NCBI GenBank assembly: GCA_019704295.1
Contig: AP024596.1
Coordinates: 2,006,501-2,070,500 of the forward strand
Length of the DNA: 64,000 nucleotides
Direction: 5' to 3'
Source of the DNA: Sulfolobales archaeon HS-7
GTDB lineage: Archaea > Thermoproteota > Thermoprotei_A > Sulfolobales > Sulfolobaceae
Part shown: piece after piece, positions 49,934 to 63,854 of the stretch
Layout: the number at the start of each line of letters is the position of its first letter
How positions within the stretch are numbered: position 1 is the first letter of the stretch
Notes under the pieces: generated by a model
Told to the model about the DNA's origin: nothing
Databases searched by the model: none
What the model saw: the letters and a program-made list of their open reading frames with translations, nothing else
Translations under genes and position numbers: made by a program

Positions 49934-50009
49934 ATGGAATATAAGATTCCTGTTCGTTGCCATTAAATTAGATTTGCGGTCACTCTTGTTCCGCCAAAAA
50001 ATTTCGAGA

Positions 50010-50366
50010 CAGTGTCCAATGTGTAATTAATGTGAATAATTAGATAAACTAAAAAGTTATAAATACCTCTTTGGAATTAAATCCGCTTAATTATGAGGAG
50101 AGAGTTAATATAAAATTAGTTTATTAGGTCTAGTCGCAAACAATCACATATTTTTAATCCGGAAGGTCAAAAACTAGGTTTCCGGCATTATGTGTTAAAC
50201 GTTTACTAAGGATATAGCTGGATATTTTAAGCTTAGGAGGTTAGCAGAGGAGTTTAATCACTTGGAATCTCTCTGTATTACCGTCCTAATTGAATAGTAT
50301 GCCTTATCCCCGTATTCTAAAATCTGGTTTTTAAAGTAAATAGCATTCATTACACATTGGACACTA
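50010..50366 (+). mobile_element. ~360 bp CAGTGTCCAA-family miniature element
   Basis: Full element from CAGTGTCCAATGTGTAATTA to TTACACATTGGACACTA. In the plus frame it contains FTKDIAGYFKLRRLAEEFNH, the same transposase relic as the 13.9 kb copy. Flanks TTTCGAGA on the left and TCTCGAGG on the right are not clean direct repeats. Confidence 0.72.
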
Positions 50367-50430
50367 TCTCGAGGAGTGTACTCATAATTTTTTATCTCCC
50401 TCTCTAGTTTATTATTCAGTGTTAAATATT

Positions 50431-50880
50431 ATGGCCAGAGCAGACAGAGTTTATCAACTGATTAAGCTTCTCCTTTACGTTGCCAAAGAGGAGGGAGTTG
50501 AGGTTACTGCAACGAAGCTACAGAAGATATTCTTCTTACTTGAGAAGGAGGGGGGAGTTGATTTAGGCCTTGAATTTACGCCTTGGTTCTTCGGCCCCTA
50601 CTCAAGTCTGCTTCAAGACTATATTGATAAGCTAATCGAAAAGGGAGACGTGAGCGTCGAGGAGGAAGAGGTAATAGACGTCTTGAGCGGTCAGGTAGTC
50701 GGTTATAAGAGGGTTTACGTCCTCAGTTCAGACGCTAGTCAGGACGATAAAAGCATCGAGAAGTTCTTTAGAAAGTGGGTTAAGATGAGTAGAAGTGAGA
50801 TTTTAAATTACGTTTACAGAAAGTATCCGGAATACGCTAAGTATTCCCTGATTAGGGATAAGATTTTTGGGAGTCCTTAA
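50431..50880 (+). CDS. Panacea-domain (SocA-like antitoxin) protein
   Basis: This 149-aa protein carries the Panacea/DUF4065 pattern: VTATKLQKIFFLLEKEGG, then LEFTPWFFGPYSSLLQDYID (about 41-60) and IEKFFRKWVKMSRSEIL near the C-terminus. Panacea domains serve as antitoxins beside many unrelated toxins. Here the gene overlaps a stop-split gene on the same strand. Start ATG 50431; ATG 50419 is less likely. The region before it holds a miniature element. Confidence 0.72.
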   Translation: MARADRVYQLIKLLLYVAKEEGVEVTATKLQKIFFLLEKEGGVDLGLEFTPWFFGPYSSLLQDYIDKLIEKGDVSVEEEEVIDVLSGQVVGYKRVYVLSSDASQDDKSIEKFFRKWVKMSRSEILNYVYRKYPEYAKYSLIRDKIFGSP

Positions 50881-51836
50881 TGAGTAAAAAGAGGAAATCG
50901 TTTTTCGCGAAATTTATAAGTGACTCTTTAACATTTTTTGATGCTGCGCTCAGCATATACGAAAAACTACAAAGCGGCAAGAAGCCGTTCTTTTCTGACA
51001 TAAGGTCCTTAGAGTATCAAAAGATTTTCAACCTTGCAAGATCTTTCGAGACTTTGAGCAAAGCCTGTCTCTCCGCGTACGGTGGATTAATTGCATATCC
51101 AGCACTCTTAGTAGCCAAAGCCAGAAAAGGAAGCCAGATAGCTCTCAGGCACGAGCAGAAGGTTATAAATTACCTAAGAGAATTAGTAAAATAATCTTTA
51201 GACCTGAAAAATATTAAGAAAAAACTAAGTCACGACCCCGTAGGTAAGTCCCAAATTCCAGTCCTTTTGATAGCTACAGCAAAGTTCTTAAGACAATTAG
51301 GGGAAAAGGAAATTGCGGAATTATATGAGCAAGTTGCAGATTATTTGAAACAGAGCAACAAGACTTACATGGAGTTGCTGGAGATAAGAAAGAGAGTGGT
51401 GTCTTCAATTCAGCTAAAGGAAGTTCATAAGCAGCTTCTCGATATCATCGAAAAGTGTTTACAATCAGGGTCTGAGGATGAGATTTGCAAAAACTTGCCC
51501 AACGACGCCGAGAAAATATTCGGCGTCTACAAGGAGAAGCCTTACCTAGTTGATCAGATACTAACGATACTGGACTTAGGAATTCAAGAGATGCTTGGCG
51601 CCATGGTTTATACGGCCTATCTAGCTAAGGCCGCTGCAATTGCGGACTATAGCGCAGGTAGGGATGAAAACGATGAAAAATACTTAGGGGAGGTGAGAGA
51701 TCATCAGAAGGAAATTATTGAATTTATGATGAAATACGCACAAATAAACAAGGAGTTTGTGAAGAGCGACGAGGTGGACGAATTTATGAGGGAAGTTGAG
51801 GATAATGCCAGACAACACTTGTCCGGGGAGAGCTGA
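50880..51836 (+). pseudogene. Panacea-associated gene interrupted by one in-frame TAA
   Basis: One continuous frame encodes ~318 residues, broken only by TAA at 51192-51194. The first part (104 aa) has ILE-rich helices with RSFETLSKACLSAYGG and ends VINYLRELVK. After the stop the frame stays open with SLDLKNIKKKLSHDPVGK, and no ATG or GTG appears before TTG 51267. The part from there is 189 aa, helical, with a late HQKEIIEFMMKYAQ segment. It could be a recently inactivated toxin, two genes, or a sequencing difference. It overlaps the Panacea gene by one base. Confidence 0.6.
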
Positions 51837-52093
51837 ACTACATTACTTATTCGTTCAGGATTAGCAGATGTCCTAATGCAATCCCGAAATAGTTCCCTGG
51901 ATTAAAAAGTGTAGCACCATCTTATGATCACACATTCCTTCAATTTCATCTAGGTAAACTGCGGGTGTTAATATAATTTCTCTCGCGCATTAAGATAACG
52001 ACTAGCGCTTATCCAGTTTTCCTTAACAGTTTTTCAAAGTTCGATGAGAATAATCAGTATACCCTTTTTAATGTCCTTAACAAGTATATTATT
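51837..52093. other. Leader region of module copy 1
   Basis: It contains the repeated motif at 51954-51972. From there the sequence is alignable with 62042 onward, including AATAATCAGTATACCCTTTTTA shared with the second copy. So the duplicated unit starts at or near the motif. Confidence 0.5.
51954..51972 (+). promoter_or_regulatory. GTWAAC-G-rich-GTTAAC motif, copy 1
   Basis: GTAAAC TGCGGGT GTTAAT, about 120 bp before the start of the small gene of module copy 1. Related sites lie at 53818, 58298, 58736, 59181 and 62042. Confidence 0.45.
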
Positions 52094-52243
52094 ATGAAGA
52101 TTGTTGACGATAAGGATGGTGAAAGGTTCTTAGAGTTAGAGAACGAACAAGATATAGACGAATTTTTTGATGCCATAACAAGGAGGGCTAAAGAAAAAGC
52201 TAATGACCGTAAACCTTCTTATGAGACCCAACCTCCTAAATAA
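52094..52243 (+). CDS. Small antitoxin-like protein, module copy 1
   Basis: This gene has 49 codons: MKIVDDKDGERFLELENEQD and a C-terminal RKPSYETQPPK. It is paralogous to the product at 62193 (copy 2), with identical RKPSYETQPPK. Its last 44 bp overlap the toxin-like gene on the other strand. Acidic and helical in the first half, basic in the last third. An antitoxin role is inferred from the neighbour and not shown. The reading frame is intact. Confidence 0.65.
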   Translation: MKIVDDKDGERFLELENEQDIDEFFDAITRRAKEKANDRKPSYETQPPK

Positions 52244-52508
52244 ATACGATACAGTTTATTGAGTCGACACTGTAAAGCATTCTTATATCACCCGTAACTT
52301 CTATGGAAAACATAGAATTCCCATACTTATCCTTTCCCAGTTTCTCCCTGGCGTATTTAAAAGGGTCACTTTTGAGTAATTTAATATTCTCTTTAATCAT
52401 ATTTAATATCTTGACGTTAAGGAACTCATAAAAAACATACTCCGCTAGCTCATCCAAACTCCTAACCTTCTTCCTGCTAACTCTTATCTTCTACTCCTTA
52501 CGAACCAT
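52200..52508 (-). pseudogene. RelE/ParE-like toxin, copy 1, with two amber codons
   Basis: The frame aligns over its full 103 codons with the intact copy 2 (62302-62607). Codon 6 and codon 91 are TAG where copy 2 has TGG. The open part 52457-52236 keeps the toxin core FKYAREKLGKDKYG and SIEVTGDIRMLYSVD. The lost C-terminus EVGSHKKVYGH corresponds to the catalytic end of RelE/ParE proteins. Both changes are C-to-T on the plus strand, and the second is silent in the overlapping small gene. Confidence 0.7.
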
Positions 52509-52582
52509 AATAAAAGAAATATAATGCTTATTTAAAAATATTTTTCTATTAGTTTAATATCTCATTATGAATAATAGTTCTG

Positions 52583-52885
52583 CTACCATTTATTTCTTCT
52601 AGATCTTTTTGTCTTAGTTTTAACTGGGTGTGCTGAATTCTTTAACGCTTCATAGTCCTTTATCCTTAATAAAGCCTCTTCAGGTTCAGTTACTCCTTTC
52701 AGCATCTCTGCAAGACCGTTTTCACCTATGTAATTCAGCCAAGAGAGGATATGACCTTCTTTCAAGTGGTATCGAGGTGCTGCAGGACCCTCTTTGGACA
52801 GTCTTTCCACTTCCTTTTCCAACTCTTTCACGTTATACGCAACTCCTGTTACCTTATTATATGAAATAGAACGGCCCCAGATCAC
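52583..52885 (-). CDS. DUF5752-like protein, module copy 1
   Basis: This 100-aa protein begins near GTG 52885. GVAYNVKELEKEVERLSKEG, RYHLKEGHILSWL and GLAEMLKGVTEPEE follow the DUF5752 pattern. The C-terminus is basic (KTKTKRSRRNKW). Its reading frame is intact, while the second copy (62753-63017) is dead. It lies 75 bp before the toxin-like gene, on the same strand. Function unknown. Confidence 0.6.
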   Translation of the reverse strand: MIWGRSISYNKVTGVAYNVKELEKEVERLSKEGPAAPRYHLKEGHILSWLNYIGENGLAEMLKGVTEPEEALLRIKDYEALKNSAHPVKTKTKRSRRNKW

Positions 52886-53006
52886 TCACTTCCGTTATTC
52901 TGCTTTTTAAAAACCCTTAGACTGTGGAAAAGAAATGGGGGATAATGTATTCGGAATCGATATAAGACGATTCAGCTTTCTCTTCATAGCGAATAATAAT
53001 AATCTT

Positions 53007-53181
53007 AGCGTTTGTAGCAAGTTTCGCAAATATAAAAATACCTGAGCAGAACACTTCCGTTCAAGTTGGGACATTGACGCAAAATGAAAATTACACACAA
53101 CCTCAGCTGTTCAAGTATGCATATAACAAAACGATAACATTAGCTCCAGTTCTTTTAGATCTACAGGTGAGGGCAGGATAG
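53007..53181 (+). pseudogene. Fragment of a membrane or secreted protein gene
   Basis: A coherent frame of ~58 codons reads RIIIILAFVASFANIKIPEQ and continues to LDLQVRAG before TAG at 53179. The first residues look like a signal or membrane helix. No start codon precedes it, as an in-frame TAG lies just upstream. The source gene was probably a surface protein. Uncertain. Confidence 0.35.
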
Positions 53182-53363
53182 TTCGCATATCTTTTTAACT
53201 AAACATCTCAATAGGGAGAGAACGTCATTTTTCCCTAACCTAGTGATGAAGGGGGCAAAAAAGCCACGGGCTAAGTTTTTTCCCATTTCCCCCTGACACG
53301 TGATGAAAGACCTCTACGCTGAGGGGAAACGAACATGCCCCCTGATGTTTATTTTCTTCTTAG

Positions 53364-53543
53364 TCATTTATACTTTTCTAAGTCTATGTTGTTCTTCTTA
53401 GCGTATTCCTTCAAACCCAGGTCAAGGATCTCGTCCGCTACATCTGCATACCTCTTCCCCACATCTACAGCTATCCTCTTTATGATCTTAGCGTATTGAG
53501 GGCTTACCCAGAGCTGTTCCTTGTTTGTAGGGTGAGATACCAT
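53364..53543 (-). CDS. Small antitoxin-like or RHH-type protein
   Basis: This gene has 59 codons from ATG 53543: MVSHPTNKEQLWVSPQYAK then KRIAVDVGKRYADVADEILD and LGLKEYAKKN. The layout (short strand EQLWVS followed by two helices) fits a ribbon-helix-helix or VapB-type DNA-binding antitoxin. No toxin gene is directly beside it. Stop TGA at 53364-53366. A TATA-like TTATCGTTATTC region lies upstream. Confidence 0.6.
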   Translation of the reverse strand: MVSHPTNKEQLWVSPQYAKIIKRIAVDVGKRYADVADEILDLGLKEYAKKNNIDLEKYK

Positions 53544-53705
53544 TTATATCGTTATTCAAAAATACCTATTTAGATGTTTAAAAGCTTTACTGTTTAGATA
53601 AAGTGTAGAGGTTACTATAAGAACTTTCCATATACTATTTGTAGAGTGATATTAACCAAACTGAAAGAAAATCAGAAATACTTAATATCCCTAAATAGAG
53701 AACTA

Positions 53706-53800
53706 TAATGGGGACGGGTCAAAAGATGAATGGAACGACGGTTGACACATGATAAGCCAGTTACGAGCTAACCCGTCCCTCATTTTTATCTTTCTTCTCG
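53706..53800 (+). ncRNA. Candidate small structured RNA
   Basis: GGGACGGGT (53712-53720) pairs with ACCCGTCCC (53771-53779), closing a ~50 nt insert. The stem is followed by a T-rich run ATTTTTATCTTTC that looks like a terminator. A TATA-like CTTAATATC lies 30 bp upstream. GATGAAT near the start of the loop resembles a C box, but no D box is clear. Family not known. Confidence 0.4.
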
Positions 53801-53817
53801 GAGGTAAAAAGCGTTAC

Positions 53818-53835
53818 GTAAACTGGGGAGTTTGG
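53818..53835 (+). promoter_or_regulatory. GTWAAC-G-rich-GTTAAC motif, copy 2
   Basis: GTAAAC TGGGGA GTTTGG. The left half is intact, the right half diverged. It is followed by the IS256 relic. Confidence 0.4.
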
Positions 53836-53984
53836 GTCGTTCACCCGTTAATTGCAAATTCACTTTATTTTATTAGTTTGAAATTAACTATTTCATTGTG
53901 GATTGGTAATACTAAATAAGGGAAGAGCCGGAAATAATACCATGGAACAACCTGAATTGTCAAATTTCAGCGAATACGGTATTA

Positions 53985-54523
53985 TCTTCCAGCTCGTCCC
54001 GCCTTCTACAGAACGCGTTATTAAACAAATTGGTCGAGGAGATCGAGGGGAAAGCCCCTGAGGAAGCGGAGGATATAATTCCAAAGTACGCTAGGGAAAA
54101 GAAGGTAAAGAGGAAATGGTACTCTAGTTTCCGCTTCCTCAAGGGTTTCGTGCTCTTGATGAAGGGTAGGAGAAAGATCTTCAACATTTTACGTCAGCGC
54201 GAAATTACCTGTCTTTTGCAGGAGGGAAGAGGGTCAAGGCGCGTGAGGAGGAGGAACTGGAGCATGAGAGTGAGGCAGTCCTCACGTTCCTCCTCATACT
54301 CATGCATCGGTGGGAAATTAAACGCTAAGCTTCTAATGCTAACCCTAGACGTTAAGGGTGACTTCAAGTACGTGCATCGTTGACGGGAAATACGTTAAGT
54401 TAACTCATGGGGAGAAGGGAGTGTTCCTCGTCGCGGTAGGGGTAACATCCGAGAGGAGGATAATACTTGACGTAGTGCTAGCTAGGGAAGAGGACAAGAA
54501 GAGGTACTGGGACTTCCTCGTGA
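53985..54523 (+). pseudogene. IS256-family transposase relic
   Basis: N-terminal LVEEIEGKAPEEAEDIIPKY is followed by frameshifts, then CIVDGKYVKLTHGEKGVFLV, ILDVVLAREEDKKRYWDFLV in another frame. The DGKYVK and GVTSERRIILDVV strands and the W..FL segment are the IS256/Mutator signature of ISC1332-type elements. It is cut at 54524 by the CAGTGTCCAA-family IS. Confidence 0.62.
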
Positions 54524-55788
54524 CAGTGTCCAATATATAATTAAAGTGAATAACTAGATAAAGTAAAAAGTTATAAAACACGTAAGTCTAGAATTAAATT
54601 CGCTTAATTACTAGTAAAAAAACAATATAAAATCAGTTTGTCAAGTGCACTCACGACTAATCTCGATTTTTCGAGAATCAAGGCTAGGGACGAGCTTCTC
54701 TAGCCGGGTTTTAAGTGGAGATTTTAACGTTTGTTAATGGATCTGAACAGGTGAATATTGTAGGCTAGGCCCAAGAGGTTGGCAAAGACGTTCAATCCCT
54801 TATGCTACTCGCGTAAGGCCTCATGTTCTGAGGAAAGTGTCAAAGAACTCTACACCACCTCTCAGTACACCAAAGCCCCTCTTGACTCTGATCACCTTGC
54901 CCCTCTCCGTAAACCCTCTGTCTACAAGCGTGATCACGTTGCAGACGGGAGACTTAAAGTTGAAACTTTGGCCGGAACTATCTTAACCTTGCAAACCATG
55001 AGGGTCTTAAGGAGAACCCGGCGAAGCACTTCCCTCCGAACCAGGTTCTGCCTCACTTCTTTCCCCAGCTTCCCTTATGTCCCCAAGGGTGTAATTTCTC
55101 GGAAATGAGAGAAAAGAGTTGATCCCTTTTCCTCTCATCGAGCGTCGCAAGTACTTCATGAGGTTTCCTCCTTGGATCAATTTCCCTGAGATCCAGTACA
55201 AGTTTCTGTGCGTTTCCACGCTCTTTTCCCCGTGAGGAGGCTCCACGGGAAAGCTATCAACCTTTGCCTTCCGAACTTCTCCTTCGCTGGGAAGTGGTGG
55301 AAGTTGCTCCTCGTTAACTCGCGACTCTAATCGCCTGAAGACCTTGAGGAGCAGATCCCTTATTCTATCTTCGTATTCGTACGCAAACCAGTTCAAGAGG
55401 ACCTCGAGGGAACCTCTTTAACGCCGAGGAAAACCTTGACCACTTCATTGGTAACCGCTAGCACAATTACTCCCCTATACGACTCTTTGAAAAGCACTCT
55501 CACGATCATCATCTTCAAGTAGACCACGTTAGTACTTGGAGAACTCGTGATCCTTGAACTCCCTTTCAATTACGTCCTCTAACTCACTCAGGATTTCCTC
55601 GCACTCCAAAAGATATTTACTCTTCCAACCCAACTCTTGGGGGATTACGTCGGAATAAATCTGAACCACGGTATAACCTAGGCGTAATCCCCTTAACTAT
55701 TATCCTCCTAGATGAGTTCTTGAGGTTTTATTTTTCCCCAAAAATTTACTTAATAAACTAGATTACATTTATTAGACATTGGACACTA
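54524..55788 (+). mobile_element. 1.26 kb IS with CAGTGTCCAA ends, decayed
   Basis: It has the family's ends at both sides (CAGTGTCCAATATATAATTA on the left, TTAGACATTGGACACTA on the right) and is longer than the ~360 bp copies. The plus-strand frame 54779-55108 and minus frame 55396-55007 both give transposase-like but interrupted sequence, for example TNVVYLKMMIVRVLFKESYR on the minus strand, which resembles an IS5-type N-terminus. It may be the parental IS, or an IS with another inserted into it. Confidence 0.5.
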
Positions 55789-55853
55789 TCACGTAAAGAA
55801 GGCCAAACGTTAGCTTCCCCACCGAACGAAAGACCACCGATATATATCTAAAA

Positions 55854-56459
55854 CTAGAACTTTAAATTAAATCTATTTTTTACGTAATTCAGTTTATTTA
55901 TCGGATCATCAACATTTGGTATTGTTATATCTCTGCCGTCTACCGTAAGTATATGCCAGTCCCCAATTTCCTTGTAGACCGGCGAAATTATATTTGCCGT
56001 TATACTAGGTCTATTTGCGACGTTTTCCTGTCTAACATTCATTACAGTTATAGTTTTTACCTGATCCCATGTAACCACTTGTTCTCCTTCTAAATTATTA
56101 GCGATTTTACCAAACTTTTTCCCTACTCCTACTAGCTTAACTATACCGAATGCACTACCTGCAACCAAGCCAATACCGATTGAAGTAGGTATCCAGTCTA
56201 CGGGATAACTAAAACTAGTAGGTAAAGCTAAAGAGACGAGAAATATTCCAAACACAGCAATAAAAGCTAAAACTATTATTCCTATTGCTATTCCCAATGT
56301 AGCAGCAAAACCTCCTACTCTCTTTAATCTGTTCATTCTGTAAATTCCGTCATATGCCGCAGCATAGAGTGGAACGAAAACCCTAGATGACATCATTTGA
56401 TACCTAGTCTGCATCGGGTTGAGGGTGACTATTTCATTGTAATTGAACTTCCTCATCAT
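55854..56459 (-). CDS. Unknown membrane protein
   Basis: This 201-aa protein has two hydrophobic helices at about 52-75 and 90-110 in the middle (IGIIVLAFIAVFGIFLVSL and PTSIGIGLVAGSAFGIVKLV). The C-terminal half is soluble and strand-rich, with DWHILTVDGRDITIPNVDDP. No known family. The gene stands alone between the IS and a transposase relic. A start TATA is not clear. Confidence 0.6.
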   Translation of the reverse strand: MMRKFNYNEIVTLNPMQTRYQMMSSRVFVPLYAAAYDGIYRMNRLKRVGGFAATLGIAIGIIVLAFIAVFGIFLVSLALPTSFSYPVDWIPTSIGIGLVAGSAFGIVKLVGVGKKFGKIANNLEGEQVVTWDQVKTITVMNVRQENVANRPSITANIISPVYKEIGDWHILTVDGRDITIPNVDDPINKLNYVKNRFNLKF

Positions 56460-56956
56460 TATCTCTTTATAGTTGAAAACATATAAATGTTGCAGTCGTA
56501 GAAATTAACTAATGCTTCTGTTCTGTATAACGTCATGCAAAGCGGGTGGATACGTAAAAATTAATGAATGCAAAAATACTAGTTTGTATTCACGAGATCT
56601 ATAATAATAATATATATAATACAAGCTGAGAATAGAGAGTCAGAAGTTCTAATGAAAGCTGCAAGGAAAAAAATAACCATTTAAGATTAGCTAAGGCTAT
56701 ATTCGTTACTGACAATGGAAAATTAGTTGCTGTATCAGTCTTGTTTTACCAAAAAATCTCACGGTTGTAAGATATTATTAGGATAACTTGTGTATAAAAA
56801 TATAGGATTAAGTCAACTTAGAAAGCATTACAATATGATACGTTTAGTCAAAATCTACTATATTTTACAAGTTAATGATAATAAATACAAGAAGTTCTGA
56901 ATTTATCTCACGAGGTTAAAGCAAGGTCCATAGTCGACTCCCTAGTCTGAAAATGC
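56460..56956. other. ~500-bp region with only short frames
   Basis: A+T-rich. A short frame, HLRLAKAIFVTDNGKLVAVS (56680-56760), may be a fragment of an unknown gene. No start codon or ribosome site. Nothing else is supported. Confidence 0.35.
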
Positions 56957-57182
56957 CTAGAGGAGATTGATGAACTGGTAAAACGCTAGGGGCTTCTCTC
57001 CTGATGCCTTGAAGTTAAACAAGAGGAAGAGGTAAAAGTTCCAGGAAGGGTCAAGTAGCGCGTAGATCAAGTAGAGGTAGAACTTGTCGCAATACTTCCC
57101 CATGAGTTCTATCCTAGCTTTCCTCGTCTTGAACTCTTCCTCTATTTGCCACCTCAACCTGTAGGTCTCGGCCAACTCGTGA
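56957..57182 (-). pseudogene. Transposase C-terminal relic (ISH3/IS4-like)
   Basis: The frame reads HELAETYRLRWQIEEEFKTR, the YREK-like helix with catalytic Glu near the C-terminus of IS4-group transposases, then YCDKFYLYLIYALLDPSWNF. The upstream part is missing: a miniature element is joined at 57183 and integrase sequence lies beyond it. Confidence 0.6.
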
Positions 57183-57546
57183 TAGTGCCCAATGTGCAAC
57201 AAATGTTATTTACTATATTAACTAATTATAAGATATAAAAATAATTAAATCTACGTTGTATAATCAGGATGATAGTACGGGGGAATTACGGGAAATTAAA
57301 CCCCATTGCCGACTTCCTAGGCTTAAAAATATTCGGCTATACCCTCTGCTAACTTTTAACTCGTAGAACTGAAAACCTCTTTTTAGCTTTTATTGCTAAG
57401 AAATATATGGTTACTTTTGCTTACTATTAATAAACTTATTTTATATTACTGTCATACTTGTAATTAAGCGAATTTAATTCTAAAGAGACGTGTTTATAAC
57501 TTTTTACTTTATTTAGTTATTCCCTTTAATTACACATTGGACACTG
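57183..57546 (-). mobile_element. ~360 bp CAGTGTCCAA-family miniature element
   Basis: Left end TAGTGCCCAATGTGCAAC, right end TTACACATTGGACACTG. Internal minus frame fragment EGIAEYFKPRKSAMGFN matches the relics at 14.0 and 50.2 kb. It joins two unrelated genes: transposase relic on the left, integrase relic on the right. This is better explained by recombination between copies than by simple insertion. Confidence 0.68.
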
Positions 57547-57549
57547 TCA

Positions 57550-58030
57550 AGTGAGAGTGAGAAGCCGAAATCCCTCATTGCATATTTTATGTGTCTGAGC
57601 CTTTCTTCTCTAGTCGCTTTGCTCTTTTGTTCCAGAATTTTATCAAACAGCTTTAGATCCTCCTCAGTAACCACGTAACTATTCGTATTCTGTCTTACAT
57701 AATCTCTTAAGAATCTGTTCAGCATCATAAAAAGCAAAGAACGAAACTGAGGATCCTCAACTGCAGTATTCACTACTTTTAACAAATCGTTTATGTCAGC
57801 CTTCTCTATCTTCTTACCGTATACTATTCTCGCAATTTCGTCAGGGGCTAGAAACTGCAGCACTTTCTCTAGGAACTCTTTCGGGGTCTCCCTCAACCCT
57901 TTCTTATATCGCCACCCTGTAGCTTTTGAAATCCCCCATTTGCTCATAAGTTATCCCTTTCTCTTCAGTAACATATGTAAATAGCTGAATTTTTTGCTCA
58001 TTTGTGAGCTTATCTATATCTATTATTGCC
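57550..58030 (-). pseudogene. Tyrosine integrase N-terminal remnant (pNOB8-type candidate)
   Basis: The remnant runs from ATG 58030. MAIIDIDKLTNEQKIQLFTY continues to GITYEQMG, then a run of five G shifts the frame. Removing one G restores MGISKATGWRYKKGLRETP and the rest, with IARIVYGKKIEKADINDLL and VVTEEDLKLFDKILEQKSK. This resembles the N-terminal half of crenarchaeal integrases of the non-partitioned type. The catalytic domain is missing, cut at 57547 by the miniature element. It begins 98 bp from the tRNA-Glu half-site. Confidence 0.6.
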
Positions 58031-58127
58031 ATAATATTAATTTCTACCTCTGGTTTAAGATGGTTTCCATTTTTCCTAGATGGTTTCCGACCTAACCCAC
58101 CTCTTTTTCAATTTAATTAAAAATTAG
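58031..58127. other. Spacer between integrase and att site
   Basis: 97 bp, A+T-rich, with T runs. Nothing else seen. Confidence 0.5.
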
Positions 58128-58170
58128 TGCCGCGGCCGGGATTTGAACCCGGGCCACAGGCTTGAGAGGC
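58128..58170 (-). other. tRNA-Glu(CUC) 3'-half: attachment-site core
   Basis: On the minus strand this reads from the anticodon loop CTCTCAA through the variable and T-arm GGGTTCAAATCCC to the acceptor CCGCGGCA. The 5' half is absent; upstream sequence is unrelated. Such half-tRNA copies are the att sites of crenarchaeal integrated elements. The anticodon CUC assignment rests on the loop CTCTCAA and the stem GCCTG. Confidence 0.75.
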
Positions 58171-58322: not shown

Positions 58323-58655
58323 TTATATAAATACAATTGCTTGGCCTAGTGTGTATATGCTAATGTAAGCTACAAATAGCAATATTTTAAGCTTAGAATT
58401 AACATCTCTATAAATTTCAGTCAGGGCGTAGGCAGAGATGAATATGGGGATTGCTATATCAAATACCCCATATGCAAACTGTAACGTAGAAGAGAAATTA
58501 TAAAAAATATTATTTATTATTGATAGAGAATTATATATTGTATAATTTATAAAAATATGGCCAATTATTGACATCAAATAGCCAATTATAAAATCAATAA
58601 TCATAAGAAAGATCCCTGATAATATATTGTCTTCATCGTTCATTTTTATCCCCAA
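58323..58655 (-). CDS. Small membrane protein
   Basis: This 110-aa protein has three predicted membrane segments (LMIIDFIIGYLMSIIGHIFI, FAYGVFDIAIPIFISAYALT, LLFVAYISIYTLGQAIVFI). There is no further motif. It is flanked on both sides by a copy of the GTWAAC motif (58298 and 58736). Confidence 0.6.
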   Translation of the reverse strand: MGIKMNDEDNILSGIFLMIIDFIIGYLMSIIGHIFINYTIYNSLSIINNIFYNFSSTLQFAYGVFDIAIPIFISAYALTEIYRDVNSKLKILLFVAYISIYTLGQAIVFI

Positions 58656-59198: not shown

Positions 59199-59441
59199 CT
59201 AACTTACTAACTCTTCTCCTGCCCTAAGCCTATAAATTCTGAATTTTTTGCCTCCATATTTCATCCACGACCTTGTAATAATCCCTTCCTGTGCCATCTT
59301 CGTAAGTGTTACAAGAATCAAGTTCTTATTATATCTCGTCTTTTCTTCTAAGTAATCTAAAGTAGCCGAACCCTTTGCCGCAAGTATTGCTATTATAGCT
59401 TCCCTCACGCTTAATTTTCCCCTCATTCTCTTCTTTCTCAT
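59199..59441 (-). CDS. Winged-helix regulator
   Basis: This 80-aa protein with basic N-terminus (MRKKRMRGK) has SVREAIIAILAAKGSATLDY, then a recognition helix NKNLILVTLTKMAQE and a beta-wing IITRSWMKYGGKKFRIYRL. It is a plausible controller of the element. A motif copy lies right after its stop. Confidence 0.72.
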   Translation of the reverse strand: MRKKRMRGKLSVREAIIAILAAKGSATLDYLEEKTRYNKNLILVTLTKMAQEGIITRSWMKYGGKKFRIYRLRAGEELVS

Positions 59442-60038: not shown

Positions 60039-61349
60039 TCAGATAATTCGAGTCTGTAGTCTAATCTTATCGTTATCCTCATAATTAATTTCACTATTCT
60101 TTAGAACATCTAGAATTATTTCGATTAAGTCATTTATGTCTTTTTGTAGACTTTGCGACTTGCCATCAGGATCTAATACTCTCTTTATAGAGGGCTCTAA
60201 TGTGTAATATAACTTGTTTTTGAGTTCATCTCTACCTATTTCACCGTTATTCTGGCCTATTATTTCTCTCACTAGATCCACAAAGCCACCTTTTCTACTT
60301 CCTATTACACCTCTCGCTGAAGGTAATATGGGAAGCCCGTAATTTTGCCTTAAAATTCTCAATAACTCTCGAACTATTTCCACTTTATTAGTCCTTTTTA
60401 CTACAAGCTTTCCGTTTTTAACTTCTAAGATATCTGATAATCTGTTCCCTTCTCTGAGTGTATTAACCAGAATATCGGGAGTTTTACTATATCTCAACCA
60501 TACTATCGTGTCCAGATCGAAAATATGAACCCTTATGTAAGAATTTTCTGCCATCTGTTCAACTTCATTTTTATCTATTACTATCGGGTTACCGTTATCA
60601 TCTGTAAGTCTACTGAATACTCCATTACTCCATTCTCGTGAGCTTATTTTATTTTCTATTATATCTCTAGCTCTTTTTATTTGATTAGGCGCTAAATTCA
60701 GATCCTCCTCGAATTTTTGCTCAAGGCTACTTTTCAATTCGCTTTCTATTTTTTTAACATAGAACTTTTTCACTTCTTCTCCGCATTTCTCATAAAGTAT
60801 GAGAAAGTCTCCTATCTCTGGGATTATAATTGCCTTCTCCAGTCGTGTTATATCTTCTATTCTATCAAAGTTACCCGTTATTTTTGCTATGGACGATTTC
60901 GCTAGTATACGTGTAGATTTCAAGTTGACTCCTATAAACAAGTGACATGAACATTCTATATCGTTAATACTGCATCCCCACTGCGTATATAAAAGTAAAG
61001 TTAACTTGTGTTTTAATTCTCTCTTTAGATCAGATATATTTTTATTATATATAATATCGTCTGTATAAATATTATCGTCTATGCGTTTAACGTTTAGCTC
61101 ACCGGCTGGATACTCCTCGGAATTTTCGTCATCATGTTGTTGATTAATGTCACAAAAGCAGTTGATATTTGTTCTAAATAATTGGAGCAACACCGTGTTT
61201 ACATCTTTAGCAGGAAGTCCTACTCTATATACTGTATACCTATAACTGTTCTTTTTGTTGCCCTTTTGTACTATATATACATTCGCCGAATCTCCACGAA
61301 AATTATTTAATACTTGACATAGATAGTTACTACTAAGCTCTTCATCCAT
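60039..61349 (-). CDS. Unknown 436-aa protein of a divergent gene pair
   Basis: I do not recognise this protein. It has no membrane segment. The N-terminal part has cysteines (INCFCDIN, CSINDIECSCHLF). The middle is helical with YVKKIESELKSSLEQKF, and HIFDLDTIVWLRYSKTPD precedes the C-terminal third (LLRILRQNYGLPILPSARG). It is divergent from the 199-aa membrane gene, 53 bp apart. Roles in defence or conjugation are possible. Confidence 0.55.
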   Translation of the reverse strand: MDEELSSNYLCQVLNNFRGDSANVYIVQKGNKKNSYRYTVYRVGLPAKDVNTVLLQLFRTNINCFCDINQQHDDENSEEYPAGELNVKRIDDNIYTDDIIYNKNISDLKRELKHKLTLLLYTQWGCSINDIECSCHLFIGVNLKSTRILAKSSIAKITGNFDRIEDITRLEKAIIIPEIGDFLILYEKCGEEVKKFYVKKIESELKSSLEQKFEEDLNLAPNQIKRARDIIENKISSREWSNGVFSRLTDDNGNPIVIDKNEVEQMAENSYIRVHIFDLDTIVWLRYSKTPDILVNTLREGNRLSDILEVKNGKLVVKRTNKVEIVRELLRILRQNYGLPILPSARGVIGSRKGGFVDLVREIIGQNNGEIGRDELKNKLYYTLEPSIKRVLDPDGKSQSLQKDINDLIEIILDVLKNSEINYEDNDKIRLQTRII

Positions 61350-61402
61350 AATTTTTCACACCCCTTCAATACTTTTTTATTTTAAGAAAATCTAATATTT
61401 AT
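61350..61402. promoter_or_regulatory. Shared divergent promoter region
   Basis: It contains TTTTTATTTTAAG (61374-61386) for the plus gene and, reading the other strand, TATAAATATTAG (about 61390-61401) for the minus gene. GGGGTG precedes the minus start as a possible ribosome site. So the two genes are probably expressed together. Confidence 0.55.
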
Positions 61403-62002
61403 ATGTTAGATAAGTTAGGAAAATTATTGCTTATACTGAATGAGTATGGAATCGCCTTGTTCTATCTGACGTACGTTACATTTAATCATTTGTTGTCCTT
61501 CTATTTGTCATTAATAGTAGCAATTCTGGTATTTCTCGGTCTTTTTATATTCGTCGTAATTTTCGTGTCCAGTATTCTCCCTGCAAGGACTGCTAGCCGA
61601 CTGATATCGGGAAAGATAATAGAAGCTAGAAGGATTCACTATCAGATCATCTCATTTCAAACTAGTAACGTAATCCCTTTTGTATTAGCCTCCTACGATA
61701 ACGTTATAACCTTAATCATTAGCTGGATCATGTTATTTCTCTTTATAGTACTATCATACAACGATGTTTCGATATTAGCATTGAACCCGTATCTTTTGTT
61801 AAGGGAGTATAGCCTTTACCTCATAAAGGTAGAGATACCCCACTCAAATTACAAAGATTATTACGTATTTTCAAGAGATGATCTTGAAACTAGATCGGGT
61901 CTCGAACTGAATACTGCCCATCTTTATGAGATTGATAACAATTTGTATATTGTGATAAATGTAGAAGGTGAAGAAAACAAAAACACTAGTATGAATCCCT
62001 AA
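61403..62002 (+). CDS. Membrane protein with cytosolic C-terminal part (KwaA-like layout)
   Basis: This 199-aa protein has three membrane segments (about 17-33, 36-58, 103-122) followed by a soluble C-terminal region NPYLLLREYSLYLIKVEI, DYYVFSRDDLETRSG, TAHLYEIDNNLYIVINVE. The layout, several membrane helices then a short domain starting with an NPxL...Y segment, resembles membrane subunits of two-gene defence systems such as KwaA. This is a layout similarity, not a family assignment. Divergent partner: the 436-aa gene. Confidence 0.5.
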   Translation: MLDKLGKLLLILNEYGIALFYLTYVTFNHLLSFYLSLIVAILVFLGLFIFVVIFVSSILPARTASRLISGKIIEARRIHYQIISFQTSNVIPFVLASYDNVITLIISWIMLFLFIVLSYNDVSILALNPYLLLREYSLYLIKVEIPHSNYKDYYVFSRDDLETRSGLELNTAHLYEIDNNLYIVINVEGEENKNTSMNP

Positions 62003-62059: not shown

Positions 62060-62192
62060 ACAATTTTTTCTCACGCATATTTTCTTCATTAGATCCCACA
62101 TATGCGCTTTTACTGTTTAGTTAACAGTTTTTCAAAATTCAATGAGAATAATCAGCATACCCTTTTTAATGCTGCTTAATAAACATATGCTT

Positions 62193-62345
62193 ATGAGAAT
62201 TGAAGATAAGGACGAGAAAGGCGAGGGTTACTTAGTTATTGAAAGTAAGGAAGATTTTAAGAAGTTTAAGGAGGACCTACTCAGACTGGCAAGGGAAAAA
62301 GCTAAGGCCCGTAAGCCATCTTATGAGACCCAACCTCCCAAATAA
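62193..62345 (+). CDS. Small antitoxin-like protein, module copy 2
   Basis: 50 aa from ATG 62193: MRIEDKDEKGEGYLVIESKE and a C-terminal RKPSYETQPPK identical to copy 1. Two upstream in-frame ATGs (62142, 62187) are less likely. It shares the last 44 bp with the toxin-like gene on the other strand. Confidence 0.7.
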   Translation: MRIEDKDEKGEGYLVIESKEDFKKFKEDLLRLAREKAKARKPSYETQPPK

Positions 62346-62607
62346 ACACGATACAGTTTTTTGGATCAGCACTATAAAGTATCCTTATATCACCCGTAAC
62401 CTCTATGGAAAACATGGGATTTCCATACTTATCCTTTCCCAGTTTCTCTCTGGAGTATTTGAAAGGGTTTTCCTGTAATAGTTCTAGTTTCTCTGAAATA
62501 AGCATTATCAGCTTATCATTATACGTATCCGTAGCATACTCTAAAAACTCTCTGTAACTCTTTACCTTCCTCATCATGAACTTCAATTCCCAATCCTTAC
62601 AAACCAC
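62302..62607 (-). CDS. RelE/ParE-like toxin, module copy 2 (intact)
   Basis: This 101-aa protein has the RelE/ParE fold: N-terminal helix region, SEKLELLQENPFKYSREKLG, strands MFSIEVTGDIRILYSADPKN and the C-terminal CIVFIWEVGSHKMAYGP. The final segment is in the position of the catalytic IGHRxxVY end of RelE/ParE. It is the open version of the copy broken at 52200. Role as mRNase or gyrase poison not known. Confidence 0.75.
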   Translation of the reverse strand: MVCKDWELKFMMRKVKSYREFLEYATDTYNDKLIMLISEKLELLQENPFKYSREKLGKDKYGNPMFSIEVTGDIRILYSADPKNCIVFIWEVGSHKMAYGP

Positions 62608-62752
62608 AATAAATGAAATAGAAAAATGATTTAAAAACTTTTCTCTTTTCGTTTAATATCTCATCAGGAATAATAGTTGTGAAAAGTGAAGTGGCGTTCG
62701 TGATTCTGTCCTTCCTGATATTTTACTCCCCGATAAAATCCAGGGCTCCTTT

Positions 62753-63323: not shown

Positions 63324-63854
63324 TCAACCTCGTCTTAATTGGCTTTTTAAAGGGGAAGAGAACGATAGCAGTTGATAATGATAATAATATCCGTGAAATG
63401 AAAGGACCAGCATAACGAACCCCAGGAAGATAGCCGCGCCATTGATAAAAGAGTTATCATACCTATAGTGGGCTAATGCGAACCTCGTCCACTTCCCCTC
63501 TTTCTTTACGTATATCCCTGCCTCAGTGAAAGCGTCAAGAATCATGTGAGAGGGGCCTATCACTATGGATAGGAGCAGAAACCAGGGAATGTCGCCATAA
63601 AGAAAACCCAGAACAAAGAAGGGTATTGACGGGAGCATACCCCACACTGCAGATCTTGGGACCGTGTGGGTCAGCGGAGTCCGGGTAGGTATTGTACCGT
63701 GTCTTGTGTGTATCTCTTTATGTCCCAACCTGTCTATGATGAGGTTTCCAGCCACTGATAGGATCCCTGCTAGGACTAGGTAGTATGAGGTGAAACTACT
63801 GAGAAGCAAGGCGAGGATACCAGCTGTAAACACGTAATGGGTAACGAGTCTCAT
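63324..63854 (-). CDS. DUF1286 family membrane protein
   Basis: This 176-aa protein has several membrane segments and the pattern HYVFTAGILALLL ... HTRHGTIPTRTPLTHTVPRS ... GPSHMILDAFTEAGIYV with conserved His and Asp as in the YdjM-like metal-dependent hydrolase superfamily. DUF1286 proteins are found in Sulfolobales plasmids and integrated elements, which fits the accessory region. Function unknown. Confidence 0.75.
   Translation of the reverse strand: MRLVTHYVFTAGILALLLSSFTSYYLVLAGILSVAGNLIIDRLGHKEIHTRHGTIPTRTPLTHTVPRSAVWGMLPSIPFFVLGFLYGDIPWFLLLSIVIGPSHMILDAFTEAGIYVKKEGKWTRFALAHYRYDNSFINGAAIFLGFVMLVLSFHGYYYHYQLLSFSSPLKSQLRRG

Follow-up and report, generated by a model that had tools for sequence, protein, structure and literature searches.

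Gene pair and its surroundings

We analysed a stretch of 64 000 nt (the window) from the genome of Sulfolobales archaeon HS-7, an archaeal genome of 2.15 Mb contained in a single contig. Two ORFs coding for proteins of 436 and 199 aa are situated head-to-head in this window, with 53 bp between the start codons (Table 1); an earlier note, made from the sequence alone, had described these divergent ORFs, and its coordinates, lengths and spacing were exact. The longest stop-free run in the shuffled region was 167 codons, so neither ORF is accidental. The G+C content is 33% in the pair and 37% in the window. The region between the genes contains a possible shared TATA-like element, CTTTTTTATTTTAAG, which may have a promoter role.

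Table 1. Features of the window and of related loci. Positions are those of the window unless a genome or locus is given
Feature	Position	Strand	Remarks
436-aa ORF	60039-61349	-	ATG start; orphan at the place of KwaB, putatively a divergent KwaB or an effector substituting for it
Intergenic region	61350-61402	.	53 bp, A/T-rich, divergent; sequence read directly
199-aa ORF	61403-62002	+	ATG start; KwaA homologue
Integrase N-terminal remnant	57513-57947	-	Resembles, by eye, the intact integrase in its N-terminal part
att site, left end of the element	58120-58170	.	tRNA gene 3' end, 51 bp
Winged-helix plasmid regulator (Sulfolobus_pRN / ORF80 family)	59199-59441	-	PF05584, E 5e-17; part of the element
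ParE/RelE-type toxin	62302-62607	-	PF05016, E 5e-5; probable TA module in the element
DUF1286 membrane protein	63324-63854	-	PF06939, E 1.4e-36; part of the element
Second att copy	G000:C1:2094105-2094155		Exact 51-bp repeat within an intact tRNA gene, at a distance of 29.5 kb downstream (DNA search of the same genome)
Second KwaA-KwaB operon, same genome	G000:C1:1484651-1486320 (L019:4652-6320)		Co-directional; 195 + 357 aa
Defence island around L033	L061:6307-18873 (G001)		Schlafen-group-3/Nhi-like helicase, Eco57I/IIG-type methylase, Mokosh-like helicase

The pair belongs to an integrated pNOB8-type conjugative plasmid of ∼29.5 kb and is situated close to its left end. The element is delimited by a direct repeat of the att sequence in a tRNA gene, it carries genes for VirB4- and TraG-like ATPases and DUF1286 between the repeats, and an intact tyrosine integrase of 436 aa with the YxxR motif is encoded just inside the far repeat, outside the window. 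Both the att length and the YxxR motif agree with those of pNOB8-type integrases (PMC8371274). The element thus has in common with pNOB8-type conjugative plasmids the YxxR integrase, the att site of ∼50 bp in a tRNA gene and the VirB4/TraG-like ATPases, while the known plasmids of this type from Sulfolobales in PLSDB do not have the gene pair. Using the VirB4 protein of the element as a query we observed hits to 16 Sulfolobales plasmid records in PLSDB; neither protein of the pair was found in PLSDB, including the Sulfolobales conjugative plasmids with VirB4. This absence indicates that the pair is cargo of the element rather than a part of its conjugation genes. The earlier note had asked if either protein could be assigned to a plasmid conjugation or replication family, and the absence of both from these conjugative plasmids gave no such assignment.

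The TA-like gene, integrase remnant and regulator named as neighbours in the earlier note are all present. Its description of an accessory region holds for these neighbours, but the region is the left end of a conjugative plasmid and the remnant is situated just outside it. The remnant was considered as an end of the element and rejected, as it lies beyond the att repeat; we attribute it to an older integration. The regulator also matches NF053660 (E-value 1e-23), with a score below the cut-off of that model.

The 199-aa protein

The 199-aa protein was matched by six PADLOC KwaA models with E-values from 9.4e-8 to 2e-4, the best of them covering nearly the full length of the protein, and by phrog_7312 (E-value 1.8e-7). 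The NCBIfam KwaA model NF041622 gave an E-value of 1.3e-6 and 28.4 bits, short of its curated equivalog cut-off of 100 bits; on these scores the protein is homologous to KwaA yet falls outside the curated equivalog group of NCBIfam. In a phmmer search, similarity to the solved KwaA of E. coli (PDB 9mrg) was observed across the NPxLxL segment with an E-value of 0.007, though a profile of four Sulfolobales KwaAs used against PDB matched nothing. With an in-house KwaA profile built from ten other proteins, the 199-aa protein scored 19.8 bits, as compared with at most 7.4 bits in 2000 shuffles preserving hydrophobicity; therefore, the KwaA match cannot be ascribed merely to the composition of a membrane protein.

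The earlier note had pointed to a membrane subunit resembling KwaA from layout, several helices followed by a cytosolic segment, and HMM homology now bears this out beyond layout. We do see strongly hydrophobic segments and then a soluble part starting with NPYLLLREYSLYL; by hydropathy, the N-terminal half is hydrophobic and is followed by a cytosolic segment with the NPxLxLxxYxxY pattern, as expected of KwaA. Residues Asn128, Pro129 and Tyr136 are invariant across six archaeal KwaAs, the identity of the 199-aa protein to other archaeal KwaAs being only ∼20-26%. The protein was not found in viral contigs and plasmids. Judged by these matches, it is a divergent KwaA.

Archaeal KwaA loci

By searching Thermoproteota genomes we collected archaeal KwaA loci and read ten of them: the window, L015 (genome G421), L016 (G445), L017 (G030), L018 (G455), L019 (G000; the same KwaA is also in L008), L033 (G001), L087 (G622), L088 (G609) and L089 (G560). 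KwaA was present in 3 of the 31 genomes of the host's family. Weak matches of the KwaA profile in G028, G016 and other genomes were traced to transporters or unrelated ORFs; G845 has no KwaA either.

An adjacent partner gene, coding for a protein of 271-436 aa, was observed at all ten loci, and at eight of them the partner was recognizable as KwaB (DUF4868 / PF16162) by profile, the exceptions being the partners in the window and in L033. Existing KwaB models matched the partners in L015, L016 and L018, and a KwaB profile built in this analysis matched those in L087, L088 and L089. The partners in L017 and L019 produced nothing in hmmscan; compared with KwaBs by hhalign, they gave a probability of 94% with an E-value of 9e-8 (88% and 3e-6 in a second comparison).

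The L019 operon is a second KwaA-KwaB operon in the genome of the window. It adjoins genes read as cas3, cas4 and cas1 and, like the window pair, an integrase remnant and a 3' fragment of a tRNA gene. PADLOC and Pfam do not recognize its KwaB, which was detected by the profile-profile comparison. L019 and its Sulfolobales relative L017 (200 + 351 aa) share with the window the presence of a KwaA homologue with an adjacent partner; unlike the window, they are co-directional operons with the partner identified as KwaB. The KwaAs of L019 and L017 have only 23-26% identity to the KwaA of the window, which is too low for a recent duplicate.

The window pair as such was not found in any other of the 229 genomes of the class. 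In the nine other archaeal loci KwaA and its partner are co-directional, with KwaA first in eight and the partner first in L016; eleven bacterial or phage loci are co-directional as well, with KwaB first. Hence, among the 21 loci the window has the only head-to-head arrangement (20/20 others being co-directional), and its genes, adjacent but divergent, do not form the single operon expected of Kiwa. A dairy Streptococcus phage, Streptococcus phage 9874 (L030:2348-2923), has in gp40 a KwaA-like gene whose annotated neighbours include no KwaB; this KwaA may stand alone or have been repurposed.

The 436-aa partner

No match to the 436-aa protein was observed in Pfam, PADLOC, NCBIfam, PHROGs or PDB, and the earlier statement that it fits no nameable family was correct with respect to these five collections. 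Searches in plasmids, phages, viral contigs and genome contigs gave no match either. In the 229 genomes of the class we found nothing but the protein itself and one hit with an E-value of 2e-4 in G024; the latter ORF reads as an OBG-type GTPase and the hit was rejected as spurious.

The sole detectable relative is the KwaA-adjacent partner in L033, from another genus of the same family. In pairwise BLASTp the best segment has 29% identity over 97 aa with an E-value of 4e-4. The Smith-Waterman score was 76 versus 43.6 ± 6.6 in shuffles, with none of the 300 shuffles reaching it, and a single-sequence HMM gave 10.7 bits, while 0 of 2000 shuffles scored as high. L033 contains a KwaA of 224 aa and a partner of 349 aa (L033:306-1355), within a defence island (Table 1) that also has a 469-aa protein with no Pfam or PADLOC match. 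The common features of L033 and the window are a host from one archaeal family and partners related to each other, both of which the KwaB models fail to see; in contrast to the window, L033 is co-directional, it resides in a chromosomal defence island, and its partner has no C-terminal extension.

We observed no KwaB signal in the L033 partner by hmmsearch or hhalign. For the 436-aa protein, the hmmsearch scores against KwaB profiles were within the range of shuffles; hhalign against KwaB gave E-values of 0.08-0.2, not above decoys; and with the KwaB core profile 4 of 48 decoy proteins scored as well or better. A global MAFFT alignment with KwaBs was set aside, being not meaningful alone and non-significant in comparison with decoys and shuffles. 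By eye, residues ∼1-345 are KwaB-like in layout only: the N-terminus has the order strand-strand-helix, residues ∼165-215 have a hairpin and then a long helix, and the segment EVKNGKLVVKRTNKVEIVRELLRILRQNYG looks like the C-terminal strand-helix motif of KwaB, which is where the best, non-significant hhalign position falls. Residues ∼355-436 form an extra C-terminal helical segment of ∼80 aa. A search with the C-terminal 96 aa against PDB found nothing; the extension might, speculatively, add contacts with DNA or protein. AlphaFold models of the 436-aa protein had pLDDT of 35 (single sequence) and 34 (together with four Bacillota KwaBs). Given the failed KwaB profile tests and the low pLDDT of the models, we refer to the protein as a partner in the KwaB position, which is probably a diverged KwaB, and refrain from classifying it as KwaB.

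Interpretation

The Kiwa system has been characterized in E. coli, with structures available as PDB 9mrg, 9mrx and 9o0i. The review PMC12904381, with reference to Zhang et al. 2025, describes tetramers of KwaA that bind dimers of KwaB at the inner membrane and form a lattice; at sites of phage attachment they allow KwaB to bind the entering DNA and to block replication and late transcription with no cutting of DNA. The window has in common with the E. coli type a two-gene composition, a membrane KwaA homologue beside a soluble partner. It is also carried on mobile DNA, as is a share of bacterial Kiwa loci (21% are in prophages, PMC9090908). It differs in its archaeal (Sulfolobales) host, in the partner, which is not recognizable as KwaB and is longer (436 versus ∼315 aa), and in having divergent genes instead of one operon. 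For a thermoacidophilic archaeon of the host's group one would expect an S-layer, a tetraether membrane and infection by unrelated viruses.

We consider it reasonably likely that the element carries as cargo a Kiwa-type antiviral module, in which the 199-aa protein is the divergent KwaA, the membrane sensor subunit, and the 436-aa protein is its cytosolic partner, most likely a KwaB that has diverged beyond detection by sequence and has been extended at the C-terminus. If the module acts as Kiwa does in E. coli, KwaA would form an assembly in the membrane and hold the 436-aa partner beneath it; upon entry of a virus at that point of the membrane KwaA would respond, and the partner would then bind the entering DNA and prevent it from being replicated and expressed. 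The suggestion in the earlier note that the two genes are a defence pair gained indirect support from the presence of a KwaB-position partner with KwaA at 10/10 archaeal loci, and from the location of the nearest relative of the 436-aa protein together with KwaA in an island of restriction and helicase genes. Its proposed check by co-occurrence came out in two ways: KwaA and a partner do occur together, but the family of the 436-aa protein has only one distant relative. That it would be a new archaeal defence pair is only partly right, since other archaea have Kiwa-type pairs of KwaA and KwaB, and the genome of the window itself contains another, with a detectable KwaB.

An unlikely alternative is that KwaA is the true sensor, while the 436-aa protein and its L033 relative are an unrelated effector that took the place of KwaB. 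Neither protein has a KwaB signal in hmmsearch or hhalign, where the L017/L019 KwaBs reach 94% and E 9e-8, and the extra C-terminal segment and the different gene orientation point in the same direction. On the other hand, the layout of the 436-aa protein as seen by eye follows KwaB, and the best hhalign position, non-significant as it is, coincides with the C-terminal motif of KwaB. We give similarly little credence to a related proposal, a distinct Sulfolobales subtype of Kiwa in which KwaA would act with a non-KwaB partner family (436-aa protein and L033) from a shared divergent promoter, with spread by conjugation and an exchangeable effector.

Quite improbable, in our estimate, is a KwaA-like protein serving the plasmid itself, in surface or entry exclusion or in another conjugation-related membrane role, and not acting against viruses. 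Such a service would fit the residence of the pair inside an element that is conjugative and encodes VirB4- and TraG-like ATPases. Still, neither protein occurs in the VirB4-bearing Sulfolobales conjugative plasmids of PLSDB, an absence that disfavours this role, and L033, the nearest relative pair, is in a defence island with no conjugation genes among those read. There is also little chance that a decaying KwaA merely lies beside an unrelated plasmid orphan with no working two-gene system: the divergent order seen nowhere else among the 21 loci, the orphan status of the 436-aa protein and an upstream region rich in repeats resembling insertion-sequence remnants would agree with this, but each of the ORFs is intact, a single 53-bp region is common to the two, and the similarity of the 436-aa protein to a KwaA-adjacent protein from another genus (L033) argues against accidental adjacency.

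Returning to the Kiwa-type module, we regard the pair as a real and probably functional Kiwa variant of Sulfolobales; the data suggest that this anti-virus system exists also in this archaeal group, in unusual forms. The partners in L017, L019, L033 and the window score nothing with the current KwaB models, so present tools will probably overlook systems of this kind. The main text of a large survey of archaeal defence (PMC12988326) contains no mention of Kiwa. The occurrence of KwaA twice in one archaeal genome, once on a conjugative element, makes the cue sensed by KwaA testable; it may be bacterial, or it may be a disturbance of the membrane that occurs in both domains. Should the partner turn out not to be KwaB, it would show that KwaA is able to work with different effectors.

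Other features of the window and of the element

The TA-like module with the ParE/RelE-type toxin is duplicated at a distance of ∼10.1 kb (62116-62681 and 52018-52582, 71-91% DNA identity), one copy being within the integrated element and the other (52018-52582) outside. In the region 50002-57558 a sequence of ∼50-66 nt (CGTGACAGTGTCCAAT...) recurs several times in direct and inverted orientation, the copies being 65-90% identical; these are probably insertion-sequence ends with pieces of broken transposases between them. Within the element, not far from the pair, an ORF at 58323-58655 codes for a predicted membrane protein of 110 aa with no family. The integrase and the orphan are both 436 aa long, a coincidence. 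The tRNA gene used as the att site (L077 c9113-9202; G000:C1 ∼2094112-2094201) has an insert outside the usual place in the anticodon loop; the ARAGORN call is Phe(aaa), intron-containing, while the anticodon loop reads as that of tRNA-Glu(CTC).
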